In this document: positions 7,539 through 60,730 of the stretch, in pieces
Layout of the letters: each line of letters opens with the position of its first letter
Position numbering within the stretch: position 1 is the first letter of the stretch
From: Candidatus Oscillochloris fontis
GTDB taxonomy: Bacteria; Chloroflexota; Chloroflexia; Chloroflexales; Chloroflexaceae
Length of the DNA stretch: 64,000 bases
NCBI RefSeq assembly: GCF_004138135.1
Contig: NZ_RYFD01000006.1
Location: 30,992 to 94,991, forward strand
Direction of reading: 5' to 3'
Made by a program: the position numbers and the translations under genes
Notes under the pieces: model-generated
Database searches by the model: none
What the model was told of the DNA's origin: nothing
Seen by the model: only the letters and a program-made list of their open reading frames with translations

Positions 7539-9674
7539 CTATACCACCTCAATCATATAATCCTGGCGTACCTCATGAACCACGCCCGTCAACTCCAACG
7601 CCAAACAATAGCGCCCGCGCATCGTTGGGGTCAGGCGCAGCCGATCCACCTCAATGGCCTGACAATCCGGCGGCAGATCACGCATGCGGATCGTCTCGGC
7701 CAGCAGTTGCCCCTGTGGATCAGTGAGCCGCGCCACTAATCGCGCCCCGCCAATGGTCATCTGCGCATCATTGATCAGATAGAGCGGCAGTTCAACCGCC
7801 TCCCCCAGACTATATGCGCGTGGCGGGAAGAGGCAAAAGGCGTACTGCGGGCTAAAGGCCATCCGCATGGCATAGTAGGAACGCTTTGGTACCCGCCAGT
7901 AATCCACCACACTCCACAAGACCGCCGGGTAGGGATCAACAAACAGAAAGGGGATGATCCCGCCATTAGGCCGATATTTGTAGAAGCGTAGCCGATCAAT
8001 ATAGTAACGGTTGATGAAGATCTGGTAGTCCTGGGTCAGATCAACCAATTCGGCCAGCGATTCGGCTTGACGCCAAGCAATCCAGTTGTCCATGATCTCG
8101 GCCTGAAAGCCGTGGTGGATACTCAGACGCGCAATCGCCTCGGCATCGAGCGGATCGGGCATGAAACGGCGACTACTCTCGACATTCGGGAAACTCTGCG
8201 CCCCAAACTCGGTAACAAAGCTCATGTTGCCACTGAAGCGCCGCTGCATCACCTCGGCATCATCGAGCGTCCCATAGGTACGGTACCAGCCAAAATAGGC
8301 GTGCCCATCGGTACCCCGCCGCAGGTAGGGCACATCCGGCTCACCCGAACTGCGGATCGCCGGGCGCGTCGGGTCGTCGGCTTCCACCAGCGCCTTGAGT
8401 TGGCTATCCATCACATCGCGGTTCCAGTTGAAGCCAAAGCCGGTCGCATAGGTACGCAAACGCGCCAACAGACTCTCATCGGTCGTATCCTCGATCAACA
8501 CCGCCTCGTTATGCATACACCAGATCACGACGCTCGGATGGCTCCCCAAGAGCCGCGTCATCTCCAACACTTGCCGCCGCGCCTCCGGCAGGATCTGCTG
8601 ATCGTAGAGCCATTGTAGTGGGAAATCTTGCCAGATCAGGATTCCCGCCACATCCGCTGCTTCATACAGCGCCGGGTGATCAATATGGGCGTGAATGCGC
8701 AGCATATTCATGAAGCACTCGCGCACCAAGAGCAGATCCTGATCGTAGCGCTCACGAGTCATAGTAGCGATCCACATATCACCCGGTGGATAGTTATTCC
8801 CCTTGGCCTGAAAACGCACCCCGTTCAGATGCGGTGCCCAGTTGCGTAACTCAAAACGCCGCACGCCAAAACCAAACGCGCAACGGTCACTCACTCCTTC
8901 TTCCAACACCACCTCAACCTGCACATCATACAGATCGGGCCGCCCCAGGTCGTGCGTCCACCACAAGCGCGGCTCGCGCAACTTGAACAACCCGCCCACC
9001 TCCTGCTGCCCCGCACGCAACACCCGGCGCTGGATGATCGTCTGTACGGGTGCCACAAAGGTGCGCGGCGTAAAGGTGAAGCGCAGCGTGACCGCACAGG
9101 CATGCGCAGCATCAAGATCGAGATCGAAGCGAATCTGGGCGAAACGCTCATCGCAGGCTAGGGTCAGACAGCGGGCATGGGTGAGGCGCAGCGGGCCACT
9201 CTGGTGCAACTCAACGGGGAGCCAAAGCCCGCCCGGATTGGCATACGGATCGAGGCAGTCCCAATGCGAAAAGACCCCCGTAATCATCCGCTTGCCACTC
9301 TTATTGCGCTCTTCGGGGCTATCAAGCTCGATCAGCAGATCGTTCTCGGCCTGGAGCAACGCGCCGACCTCATACTCCACGGGAGCAAAATAGCCCTCGT
9401 GGCTGCCCACGACCACCCCGTTCAGGTAGACCCGGCTATAGTAGAAGGCACCGTTCAACCGCAGCCAGCGCCGCTGCCCCGCCGCGCCCTCCGCAGCCGC
9501 AAAGTGGCAACGATAGACCACCTTACCAATATGGGTAGACAATTCGGGAATCTGCTGCCAATGCCCCGGCACGACTGCTGGCAGCCAGCCTTCATCATCA
9601 CGAGGATAGATGCCTTGGGTAAAATGTTCGAGCGGGCGAATCTGCCAAGCGGTGTTGAGGGTTTGATCAAGCAT
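7539..9674 (-). CDS. Glycoside hydrolase family 2 protein (beta-mannosidase-like)
   Basis: A 711-residue GH2-type retaining beta-glycosidase. The N-terminal jelly-roll sugar-binding domain has RRWLRLNGAFYYSRVYLNGV and GYFAPVEYEVG. An immunoglobulin-like domain follows, then a TIM barrel. The acid/base glutamate is E390 in WCMHNEAVL and the nucleophile is E489 in SFVTEFGAQ; both are in the right context. The WCMHNE and TEFG wording is closer to beta-mannosidases and beta-glucuronidase-like GH2 than to lacZ, but the substrate cannot be fixed. There is no signal peptide, so it is probably cytoplasmic. It appears to be a monocistronic gene between the CpXC gene and mazEF. Confidence 0.85.
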   Translation of the reverse strand: MLDQTLNTAWQIRPLEHFTQGIYPRDDEGWLPAVVPGHWQQIPELSTHIGKVVYRCHFAAAEGAAGQRRWLRLNGAFYYSRVYLNGVVVGSHEGYFAPVEYEVGALLQAENDLLIELDSPEERNKSGKRMITGVFSHWDCLDPYANPGGLWLPVELHQSGPLRLTHARCLTLACDERFAQIRFDLDLDAAHACAVTLRFTFTPRTFVAPVQTIIQRRVLRAGQQEVGGLFKLREPRLWWTHDLGRPDLYDVQVEVVLEEGVSDRCAFGFGVRRFELRNWAPHLNGVRFQAKGNNYPPGDMWIATMTRERYDQDLLLVRECFMNMLRIHAHIDHPALYEAADVAGILIWQDFPLQWLYDQQILPEARRQVLEMTRLLGSHPSVVIWCMHNEAVLIEDTTDESLLARLRTYATGFGFNWNRDVMDSQLKALVEADDPTRPAIRSSGEPDVPYLRRGTDGHAYFGWYRTYGTLDDAEVMQRRFSGNMSFVTEFGAQSFPNVESSRRFMPDPLDAEAIARLSIHHGFQAEIMDNWIAWRQAESLAELVDLTQDYQIFINRYYIDRLRFYKYRPNGGIIPFLFVDPYPAVLWSVVDYWRVPKRSYYAMRMAFSPQYAFCLFPPRAYSLGEAVELPLYLINDAQMTIGGARLVARLTDPQGQLLAETIRMRDLPPDCQAIEVDRLRLTPTMRGRYCLALELTGVVHEVRQDYMIEVV

Positions 9675-9692
9675 GAGGTTTGAGGGTAAATG

Positions 9693-10010
9693 CTACTCAG
9701 CAAAAAGTTCGGCGAGCACCCCCAGCACTTTGGTTTGCGTCGTTGGGGTAATACGACCAAGATATTTGACGAGCCGCCGCTTATCCACGGTGCGAATCTG
9801 ATCAAGAACAATATGGGCATCTTTGCCATCAAAACGGGTCGCAACACGCGATGGATACGCACGCGCTTTTGTGGTCATAGGAGCCACAATCACCGTCTGA
9901 ATGTAGTCATTCATTTCATCCGGCGAGATAATGAGACATGGGCGAGTCTTTTGGATTTCAACACCCACTGTTGGGTCGAGGATCACCAAATAGACATCAA
10001 AACGCTTCAT
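9693..10010 (-). CDS. mazF: MazF/PemK-family endoribonuclease toxin
   Basis: A 105-residue toxin of the CcdB/PemK fold. It starts MKRFDVYLVILDPTVG and has the family motif KTRPCLIISPDEMN, followed by VIVAPMTT and an LDQIRTVDKRRL block. MazF proteins cleave mRNA at short sequence motifs and are neutralised by their AbrB-type partner. The ATG overlaps the mazE stop codon (ATGA, 4 bp), indicating translational coupling and fixing this start over an upstream in-frame codon at 10037. Cleavage specificity cannot be read from the sequence. Confidence 0.9.
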   Translation of the reverse strand: MKRFDVYLVILDPTVGVEIQKTRPCLIISPDEMNDYIQTVIVAPMTTKARAYPSRVATRFDGKDAHIVLDQIRTVDKRRLVKYLGRITPTTQTKVLGVLAELFAE

Positions 10011-10273
10011 TCCCACTCCCATTCCGTCGTATCCCAAAGGGTTGCTGGTTCCTCAGCATCAAGCAGCGCATCGTCGTGTTGTTCGGCCATACGCTGAAAC
10101 TGCGTCGCCCACAGCGCACGCGGCGCAGAACTAGAGCGCACGATCAAGTGGGTGCCTTGAACTTCCAATTCGATGGCATCAATCAGACCCACCTGATCGC
10201 GTACAATTTTTGGAATACGAACACCATGTGAGTTGCCAATTTTGACGAGGCGGGTTTTAATCACTGTGCTCAT
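10007..10273 (-). CDS. mazE: MazE/AbrB-family antitoxin
   Basis: An 88-residue antitoxin. The N-terminal swapped-hairpin AbrB DNA-binding domain is MSTVIKTRLVKIGNSHGVRIP followed by IELEVQGTHLIVR, and an acidic C-terminal tail (LLDAEEPATLWDTTEWEWE) is presumed to wrap MazF. AAAGGA lies upstream of the ATG. It is first in the operon with mazF and probably autoregulates: the promoter (10299-10327) contains a perfect TGTAATTACA palindrome at 10301-10310. Confidence 0.9.
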   Translation of the reverse strand: MSTVIKTRLVKIGNSHGVRIPKIVRDQVGLIDAIELEVQGTHLIVRSSSAPRALWATQFQRMAEQHDDALLDAEEPATLWDTTEWEWE

Positions 10274-10298
10274 ACGTGTATCCTTTCAACGTAGGTAC

Positions 10299-10327
10299 AG
10301 TGTAATTACAATCCACGCTGGTGTCAA
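10299..10327 (-). promoter_or_regulatory. mazEF promoter with palindromic operator candidate
   Basis: On the minus strand TTGACA (10322-10327) and TACACT (10299-10304) are separated by exactly 17 bp, 26 bp before the mazE ATG. The 10-bp palindrome TGTAATTACA overlaps the -10 and part of the spacer, a plausible site for MazE/MazEF autorepression. Promoter elements are seen; regulation is inferred. Confidence 0.65.
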
Positions 10328-10341
10328 GCACAGATGCGACC

Positions 10342-10477
10342 GTAACTGTTCACCCTTGGGGTAAAAGAAATCTCGTGTTGACGCCAAGGCGCAAGGACGC
10401 AAAGGTTTTGTTGCAGGCTTTGCGCCTCTGCGTCTTTGCGTCAAAACCTGGAAGCTAGGAGAAGTGTGAACAGTTAC
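10342..10477. mobile_element. MITE-like element, copy 1, with 8-bp target duplication
   Basis: 136 bp bounded by the perfect 12-bp inverted repeats GTAACTGTTCAC and GTGAACAGTTAC. An inner inverted repeat (TTGACGCCAAGGCGCAAGG against TTTGCGCCTCTGCGTC) makes it foldable. The 8-bp direct repeat ATGCGACC lies immediately outside both ends (10334-10341 and 10478-10485). It encodes nothing. A related copy lies at 60589-60730. It provides the TAA stop of the glycosyltransferase gene. Confidence 0.85.
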
Positions 10478-11430
10478 ATGCGACCAAGCGCAGCCCAGAC
10501 CTGGCGATACACCGCGATCCGCTGGCGGCGTAGTTCACGGCGATGCCCCAACAGCCATTTCAACCCTTCGACAAGCAACTCATACAGATAGCCCAGCCGC
10601 AGCACGAGGCGCAATAGGCGTGCAAAGCGCCACCCGAACCAGATCTGGGCCAAGCGGATCTTACTCGACTGGAACCAGATATGCCGCCGCGCCAGCACCT
10701 GTTCGCTACTCTTGCCCTCATAATGCATAATCTCGGCGTCAGGCACATAGGCAACCCGTCCCTCCCGCTGCAACCGCGCCTGCCATTCCAACTCCTCACT
10801 ATACATGAAGAAGCGTTCATCAAACAGTCCCGCCGCCTGGATCGCCCGCCCGCGCACCAACAGCGCCGCTCCCACCAGCCAATCCACGCGCTGCACCCGC
10901 GCCTCAAACTGGTTGACGCAGCGATAGTGGCGCAGCCACGGGTTGTGCGGCCAGAGCCGCTCCAACGGGGTACTCTCCCAGAATAGTGTCATACGGGTGG
11001 GGAAGTGCCGCCGCGAAGATTGCAGGCTGCCATCGCCATACCGCAAACGTGGCCCCACCACCACCAGATCAGGATGCGCCTGCATCTCGGCCATCAAGCG
11101 CCCCAGCGCCCGCCCCACCACCTCCGTATCCGGGTTGAGCAACAAGACATACGCTGGTGCAGTGGTACGCGGTTGCACGCCCAGCCCCAAGCGCTCTAGC
11201 GCCAGATTATTGCCCGCCGCAAAGCCCAGATTCGCCCCGGACTCGATCAACTCAACCTGTGGAAACTCAGCCCGCAGCATCTCCGGGGTACCATCACCAC
11301 TCGCATTATCCACCACCACAATCCGCGCATCCAGATCACTCAGCGCTAACGAATCAGCAACCGATTGCAAACAGCGCCGCAACAAGTCGCGTACATTCCA
11401 CGAAACAATGACAATTGCGAGTGTGGGCAT
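10474..11430 (-). CDS. Family 2 glycosyltransferase (WbbL/rhamnosyltransferase-like)
   Basis: A 318-residue GT-A fold enzyme that transfers a sugar from a nucleotide-sugar donor, probably in cell-envelope polysaccharide synthesis. It begins with the GT2 signature [20 protein letters not shown] and has [11 protein letters not shown], a metal-binding NPDTEV, and the [21 protein letters not shown] block that resembles WbbL-type rhamnosyltransferases. A basic, hydrophobic C-terminal region may associate with the membrane. The stop codon TAA belongs to an inserted MITE-like element. Joining the target duplication restores an ancestral end Arg-Ile-Cys-Ala-stop, so the insertion changed only the last few residues and probably left activity intact. 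Donor and acceptor are unknown. Confidence 0.88.
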
Positions 11431-11448
11431 AATAGCACCATGGGGGTA

Positions 11449-11564
11449 ATACCAATTCCTGAAGAAGCTACCGCATTGTCACGCTGAGCGAAGCGAAGCG
11501 TCTCGGACGGGATTCCTCGCTACGCTCGGAATGACAATGCGGTATATTCACCAGGAACTGGTAT
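11449..11564. repeat. Nested inverted-repeat element upstream of the GT2 gene
   Basis: The ends ATACCAATTCCTG (11449-11461) and CAGGAACTGGTAT (11552-11564) are inverted repeats with one mismatch. Inside, ACCGCATTGTCA (11470-11481) and TGACAATGCGGT (11532-11543) pair perfectly. The middle contains GAAGCG and GGGATTCCTCGC words; a related CTCGGAATGACAA word recurs near 34917-34930. It is non-coding and MITE-like, and a clear target duplication was not seen. Confidence 0.65.
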
Positions 11565-11590
11565 AATGAGGGGGATTGGTTCGGGAGATA

Positions 11591-12004
11591 TTATACATAC
11601 CCATACTCAAGAAATGTACGTGGATTCAGAATCGCAACTCCGCGATATGGATGAAGATCAAGAAGATCATTATCTCCACTTATAATCAATTTTGCATCCC
11701 CACAGATTGCCACTTCAAGGAATTTATTATCTTTCGGGTCACGACAAGCAATAATAGGCTCAATAATCTCTACAAGTACAGTTTTCTGCAAAAAAATTGT
11801 CAGAAAACGCTCTCGTACATCGCGTGAAAGATAGCGATCAAATTTTTCTCGTAAAAGTACTGTAGTTAATTCAAGCGTCGTTGCTTCCGAAACAAGCACA
11901 ATCCCTCCTACAAGAGCAGCGTCTACTGCCTGACGTGGTACGGATTGACGAAAAAGTGCAGCGCTAACAATGGTGTTTGTATCAATAACAAAGCGATTAC
12001 TCAT
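11591..12004 (-). CDS. PIN-domain ribonuclease toxin (COG1569-like)
   Basis: A 137-residue single PIN domain, the nuclease fold of VapC-like toxins. Acidic active-site residues are visible in VIDTNTIVSA (D8), in the central TTLELTTVL and in the C-terminal RDPKDNKFLEVA and IISGDNDLL blocks. The pattern is closest to the putative toxin family that pairs with small non-AbrB antitoxins. An ATG at 12010 is also possible; the one at 12004 is used because MSNRFVID is the usual N-terminus. It overlaps the preceding antitoxin gene by 8 bp. The region is notably AT-rich compared with neighbouring genes, suggesting recent acquisition. Confidence 0.82.
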   Translation of the reverse strand: MSNRFVIDTNTIVSAALFRQSVPRQAVDAALVGGIVLVSEATTLELTTVLLREKFDRYLSRDVRERFLTIFLQKTVLVEIIEPIIACRDPKDNKFLEVAICGDAKLIISGDNDLLDLHPYRGVAILNPRTFLEYGYV

Positions 12005-60588: not shown

Positions 60589-60730
60589 GTAACTGTTCAC
60601 GCTTAGGATAAATCGAAGCCTTTGTTTGACGCCAAGGCGCAAAGGTTGCAATGAGGGCCGCTAGTAAAGGCTTTGCGCCTTGGCGTCTTTGCGTCAAAAC
60701 CGGGATGTTAAGAGAACTGTGAACAGTTAG
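60589..60730. mobile_element. MITE-like element, copy 2, inside the hem operon
   Basis: 142 bp bounded by GTAACTGTTCAC and GTGAACAGTTAG, with the same inner arms as copy 1 (TTGACGCCAAGGCGCAAAGG against CTTTGCGCCTTGGCGTC), in the same orientation. It lies between hemC and hemD, where most operon neighbours are separated by less than 100 bp. The right terminus differs by one base from a perfect repeat, and no target duplication could be seen, so it is probably older than copy 1. Confidence 0.8.

Follow-up and report, generated by a model that had tools for sequence, protein, structure and literature searches.

The stretch of DNA that was analysed (64,000 nucleotides, referred to here as the window) carries a 136-bp element lying between the 3' end of a GT2 glycosyltransferase gene and the promoter of a mazEF-like toxin-antitoxin pair (Table 1). 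The element is a MITE. Its terminal inverted repeats (TIRs) are complementary at 12/12 positions and it is overlapped only by short mechanical ORFs; what a preliminary description of this locus had read there, a 136-bp element with perfect 12-bp TIRs and an 8-bp duplication, ATGCGACC, is borne out letter by letter. The MITE hairpin is strong (z -6.2 on one strand and -4.5 on the other). No match to an Rfam RNA family was found within window 9600-11700, and no terminator-like site at the MITE.

Table 1. Features of the locus, and a second copy of the family, in window coordinates
Feature	Position	Strand	Remarks
PemK/MazF-like toxin of toxin-antitoxin pair	9693-10037	-	named from Pfam; coordinates are those of the longest frame
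MazE-like antitoxin	10007-10273	-	Pfam E=6e-4, under the curated cut-off
TACACT, -10 of mazEF promoter	10299-10304	-	spacer 17
TTGACA, -35 of mazEF promoter (target motif)	10322-10327	-	6 bp from duplication, 14 bp from MITE
Target duplication, promoter side	10334-10341		ATGCGACC
MITE, 136 bp, without transposase gene	10342-10477		letters read directly
TIR, GGG-arm end	10342-10353	+	GTAACTGTTCAC; matches IS66 3' end
Palindromic CGCAAAG-type core	10380-10442		repeat occurs also in genomes without the TIR
Self-nesting hotspot of other copies, empty here	10451-10458	-	8 bp, then 6 bp, then TTGACG (10444-10439)
TIR, TCC-arm end	10466-10477	-	GTGAACAGTTAC; matches IS66 5' end
GT2 glycosyltransferase gene	10474-11430	-	Glycos_transf_2 E=6.5e-18; stop supplied by MITE
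Target duplication, GT2 side	10478-10485		ATGCGACC
Second, diverged family copy, 142 bp	60589-60730		one TIR mismatch; no duplication found

The GT2 gene ends GGT CGC AT/G TAA (the slash marks the border of the MITE), so that the element contributes the last base of the Met codon and the stop. When the flanks are joined without the MITE, the frame continues as GGT CGC ATC TGT GCT TGA (G R I C A stop) and its TGA sits within TTGACA, which confirms the earlier reconstruction of a frame ending Arg-Ile-Cys-Ala with a TGA in the mazEF -35 hexamer. The accompanying statement that the insertion rewrote the end of the glycosyltransferase is true by the letters, but the change is small, a single residue (M) replacing three (ICA), and affects a variable tail. 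In the GT2 genes of the relatives used for comparison the segment that follows RRQRIAVYR varies, so a neutral effect is probable. The GT2 loci of congeners, with a DNA identity of only 66-69%, were set aside as an empty-site comparison, and no mazE or mazF match was found in 29 relatives' GT2 loci, several of which are short. Just 5' of the GT2 start (window 11450-11575) lies a separate palindromic repeat, TACCAATTCCTG ... CAGGAACTGGTA around ACCGCATTGTC ... GACAATGCGGT, which resembles a different dispersed element.

Copies, duplications and interior

The genome that holds the window (G000) is a 4.46-Mb draft assembly of 139 contigs. DNA search with the window MITE yields at least 63 matches in this genome (40 of 303 first-look candidates were scored). 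The TIR 12-mer has 190 exact matches, vs one for the reversed control, and 343 vs 16 when up to one mismatch is allowed; the pattern of both ends, 96-126 bp apart, is matched 84 times over both strands, vs 0 for controls. Both ends stand together at 55 distinct places (counted from the pattern list). Duplications were assessed for 28 full-length copies at loci L001-L030 (L026 and L030, truncated by contig ends, provide no end pair): 18 are flanked by exact 8-bp and one by exact 9-bp duplications, four by duplications with one mismatch, and five by none (one of these five being cut by a contig end). At 18/28 copies the joined flanks are not crossed by any frame of at least 120 aa.

The search for further bounded copies that the preliminary description had suggested is thus answered by 19/28 full-length copies with exact 8- or 9-bp duplications. 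Its claim that a MITE with an 8-bp duplication is mobile in this lineage holds: copies with duplications are many, the exact TIR 12-mer is absent from 5/5 congeners, and nested copies, discussed below, provide empty sites within the genome itself. That the insertion at the window locus is recent, as also claimed, is moderately supported, the 29 next-closest copies with loci being 94-97% identical to the window MITE. Beyond the genus, the exact 12-mer is found in other genera of the order (for example with 50, 23, 18, 16 and 15 matches).

The sequence enclosed by the arms has a distribution of its own. The 8-base-periodic CGCAAAG sequence (GACGCAAAGGCGCAAAG...) forms a dispersed repeat in its own right, matched in 38/82 genomes of the order. 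Its core GACGCAAAGGCGCAAAG (up to one mismatch) is abundant in genomes without the exact TIR 12-mer, with 50 matches in congener G001, 119 in congener G004, 146 in G042 and 218 in G070; it has no match in G010, the genome holding the IS66 element. At the 12 loci that were read (L200-L211) the core is present as repeats or imperfect hairpins without MITE ends, and a scan around these cores for flanking inverted repeats with duplications gave nothing convincing. In other genera the same arms enclose another palindrome, GGGAGCG(A/C)GGGCGTCCCGCC; this palindrome, too, is frequent in some genomes that lack the 12-mer (for example 79 matches in G064 and 32 in G042).

Promoter-directed insertion

Copies in G000 were all turned the same way, TCC arm first, before motifs were read. 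A TTG trinucleotide (mostly as TTGAC or TTGC) was first seen six bases past the GGG-side duplication in 10/14 single copies. Among held-out copies (those with a duplication and lying outside family copies) TTG stands at this +6 position in 14/21 (P=2e-22, with a background of 1.2% per offset), and in the first set it does so in 9/18; with nested copies included, the counts are 24/34 and 18/28, respectively. On the opposite side of the MITE the motif is rare in G000 (1/21 held-out and 2/18 first-set copies, or 3/39), and that side was rejected as a target.

The samples behind these counts were assembled as follows. Of 51 pairings in the first set, 23 had no duplication and were dropped, which left 28, including 10 judged nested; of 50 in the held-out set, 16 were dropped for the same reason (many of these pair the ends of one copy in another way), which left 34, including 13 judged nested. 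The held-out copies are a non-random selection from similarity, TIR and both-ends place lists, 1/21 coming from the nesting-junction search. The nesting filter makes mistakes in both directions. It counted L239 and L244 as single, although they are probably located within or next to family sequence (the held-out count is 13/19 when these two are left out), and it scored as nested some copies that look single, L254, L261 and L262 among them.

The TTG is accompanied by a second element at fixed distance. TANNNT lies at exactly 17 bp in 14/23 TTG sites, vs a mean of 0.69 and a maximum of 3 in a sliding control. Scored at 12 positions against the textbook promoter consensus, 10/39 sites reach at least 9/12 at the target offset, vs a mean of 0.01 elsewhere and 0 at the mirror offset. 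At the more relaxed threshold of 8/12, 15 of the 39 sites score at +14, four at +13, none at +12, two at +15 and none at +16. At two insertion sites tRNA-Gly and tRNA-Lys genes start just downstream. TTG is missing at the offset in 16/39 G000 sites outside family copies, and some of these TTG-less sites (L274, L271) keep a good -10 hexamer in register. Insertion is, in short, promoter-directed, at 14 bases upstream of the -35 hexamer, and this is a preference. The second family copy in the window (60589-60730) has no TTG at the target offset.

The window locus has the same geometry. On the minus strand its order is TCC arm, MITE, GGG arm, GGTCGCAT, ctgtgc, TTGACA, 17 bp, TACACT, and TTGACA-17-TACACT is the sole promoter-like match in window 10200-10600. 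The TTGACA beside the MITE is therefore probably no coincidence but the insertion target, a role that the preliminary description had overlooked. The target is the mazEF promoter and the change in GT2 (ICA to M) is collateral: the final codons of the GT2 gene overlap the landing site, and the gene is a bystander because it was the promoter of the neighbouring toxin-antitoxin pair that was the target of insertion.

The family also inserts into itself. Seven copies lying within another family copy were analysed among L001-L030, and six of these occupy one site in the same orientation, 20-27 bases from the TCC end. Genome-wide there are 13 nesting junctions with up to two mismatches, all 13 in the same orientation; five more, at three mismatches, are doubtful (three of the five have the opposite orientation). 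The nested copies look like independent insertions, because in the tree the inner copies are dispersed between single ones (mean identity of inner copies to one another, 96.3%) and the outer copies are more diverged (88.5%) and differ in length. On the same observations, the multiplication, many times over, of one nested composite was rejected. Self-nesting is explained by the MITE's carrying its own TTGACG at the target offset (CTAGCCTC-6-TTGACG). At this hotspot no -10 is visible at the right distance, so that insertion here does not depend on a complete promoter. At L102:1258-1502 stands a 245-bp derivative, its outer duplication exact, that looks like a nested pair minus 27 bp between its two left ends.

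Outside G000, among MITEs of other genera whose duplication has at most one mismatch, 11/29 have a promoter of at least 8/12 at +14, six on the GGG side and five on the TCC side (the means elsewhere are 0.09 and 0.23, respectively); 15/29 are without TTG on both sides. Orientation is not strict beyond G000. In G053, the TCC arm faces the promoter at L332, L336, L339 and L340, opposite to most G000 MITEs, and the usual orientation is seen at L333.

IS66 elements with the ends of the MITE

A transposase whose ends match those of the MITE, which the preliminary description had proposed to look for, was not found in G000 but was found in relatives, where it belongs to the IS66 family. In G000, a search that covered the IS66 family only gave 0 PF03050 matches; across the order, IS66 (PF03050) is present in 28/82 genomes. 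Among the 25 largest open-frame clusters near TIRs in G000 and relatives no transposase was recognised by eye. The two IS66 elements that bear the MITE ends are L151 (1439 bp, with one large transposase frame of 461 aa, in a contig of the MAG Oscillochloris sp. RM1_1_4) and L152 (1435 bp, in Chloroflexi bacterium REEB485). The domain of the partner transposase matches PF03050 at E=8.2e-48, and at E<=0.001 only IS66 models match; the IS66 zinc-finger PF13005 scores 26.7 bits vs a cut-off of 27.3. Single-gene members of IS66 exist beside classic ones with accessory tnpA and tnpB genes.

The IS66 3' end, GTAACTGTTCACACTTGGGGTAAAGGAA, is identical to MITE copy L242 at 28/28 bases and to the window copy at 26/28, and the 5' end agrees with the other MITE arm at 23/28 for L242 and the window copy alike. 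The MITE arms therefore correspond to the two different ends of an IS66 element. The ends of L151 and L152 start with GTA, and both full-length elements are without matching duplications; an exact 8-bp duplication flanks L183, an IS66 relative of 47% identity.

These IS66 elements stand before promoters in the same way. The 3' end of L151 faces TTGGCG-18-TATAAT at the MITE offset, and that of L152 faces TTGCCA-17-GACAAT, again at this offset. Two IS66 remnants of G006, L078 and L352, retain, beside the 3' end, no more than the final portion of the transposase gene, and are possible intermediates on the way to MITEs; at the same offset L078 has TTGACA-16-TATACT and L352 has TTTTAC-17-TATAAT, with a poor -35. 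Among IS66 elements with a duplication, mostly distant ones, TTG is found at +6 in only 2/12. Promoter targeting as a trait of all IS66 is thus unsupported, and would be the property of a sub-clade at most. Two further elements, IS66 members of 50-51% identity, were considered and rejected: L283 has TTGACA-17-TATACT at +7 and no end pair with a duplication was found for it, and the similar end at L282 lies far from the transposase and is untrusted.

Explanations and known systems

What is described here is very probably a non-autonomous, IS66-derived MITE that is moved in trans and inserts 14 bp upstream of a sigma70-type -35 hexamer. The MITE would derive from a Chloroflexales IS66 IS of which both unlike ends were kept (~28 bp of the 3' end and ~23 bp of the 5' end), with a dispersed palindromic repeat taking the place of the transposase gene. 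Its multiplication would have been the work, in trans, of an IS66 transposase, presumably since lost from the genome or missing from the assembly. This transposase would prefer a site 14 bp before the -35 hexamer (8 bp of duplication and 6 bp beyond it), in G000 mostly with the IS 3' end towards the promoter, and may recognise promoter-bound RNA polymerase, with or instead of DNA sequence. Guidance by RNA polymerase is favoured by the two promoter hexamers occurring together, 17 bp apart, and direct reading of TTGAC by the self-nesting site without a visible -10; both may contribute.

Direct reading in its strict form, in which the transposase recognises TTGAC-like DNA and strikes promoters merely as containing it, is a serious contender whose chances we put somewhat short of even. 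The nested copies at TTGACG in the family core agree with it. On the other hand, a preference for TTGAC alone leaves unexplained the -10-like hexamers that lie 17 bp away at 14/23 TTG sites, as well as the TTG-less sites with a good -10 in register (L274, L271 and the IS66 remnant L352). An other-family transposase acting on GTAA ends and making 8-bp duplications, of ISKra4 type for example, is an unlikely mover of the MITE: elements of the ISKra4 group are known upstream of promoters (PMC3942029, in its available part) and no IS66 was found in G000, but the arms match IS66 at 28/28 (copy L242) and 23/28, and the promoter offset is shared by IS66 copies themselves.

It is very unlikely that the distribution reflects selection in place of targeting, with insertions elsewhere purged and those upstream of promoters retained. 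Insertions in genes would be harmful, and the 18/28 copies at which no long frame crosses the joined flanks fit such purging, but selection is not expected to produce a base-exact offset (+14 in 15/39), nor the same offset inside other copies of the family. Scarcely credible, finally, is the view that the sequence is no MITE but a functional RNA or a terminator which recombination has spread. The strong hairpin would suit an element of this kind; exact duplications of differing 8-mers and nested insertions argue against it, as does the absence of both an Rfam match and a terminator-like site. The IS66-derived MITE directed to promoters remains the reading that we adopt.

The relation of this MITE to described IS66 elements is one of likeness with differences. 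Its partner has the DDE_Tnp_IS66 domain (PF03050), ends begin with GTAA or GTAC, and 8-bp duplications flank MITE copies and the IS66 relative L183; in the available parts of the sources, IS66 insertions in Frankia likewise have 8-bp duplications, with inverted repeats starting GTAAGCG (PMC11946415), and Pseudomonas IS66 inverted repeats start GTAAGCGTCC and GTAACCGTCC (PMC12888890). The MITE end, GTAACTGTTCAC, differs from all three of these published starts, and the partner's one large transposase frame differs from the three ORFs of classic members (PMC12888890, available part). Among MITEs, MITEPsy1 and MITEPsy2 (assigned 'IS5?' and unknown, respectively, and present in few copies; PMC3189936, available part) are similar in being short and non-coding with inverted repeats, and differ in not being IS66. 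The available parts of PMC3189936, PMC9769881, PMC11946415, PMC3942029, PMC12888890 and PMC10433421 contain no IS66-derived MITE. A literature search of partial coverage, with few subscription papers, returned nothing on IS66 elements or MITEs that target promoters, and no hit to strings of the MITE core sequence.

The closest parallel is provided by TnGBS, ISLre2 and ISKra4-group elements, which insert 15-17 bp upstream of sigmaA -35 elements, are oriented when their inverted repeats differ, and have been proposed to contact the RNA polymerase initiation complex; they are Mutator-like (p-MULT 3 and 4) and share a sequence signature (PMC3942029, the available part of which nowhere mentions IS66). 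The fixed distance from the promoter and the orientation by dissimilar inverted repeats are common to these elements and to the MITE. The former are Mutator-like, encode their own transposase and insert at 15-17 bp, whereas here a MITE of IS66 type inserts at 14 bp. We give an even chance to the broader proposition, that a clade of IS66 independently evolved RNA-polymerase-guided integration upstream of sigma70 promoters and that this drives modular MITE families with unrelated palindromes. The MITE lands beside promoters and leaves the core promoter unbroken, and could serve as a natural promoter marker in Chloroflexales. Promoter-directed integration by bacterial DDE transposases has been described for Mutator-like elements (PMC3942029, available part), and a near-identical geometry with an IS66 transposase would mean that it had more than one origin. 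Comparison of two unrelated enzymes would then make contact between transposase and RNA polymerase testable, and the IS66 case, if true, would be convergent with TnGBS, ISLre2 and ISKra4 as well as with the Ty elements of yeast.
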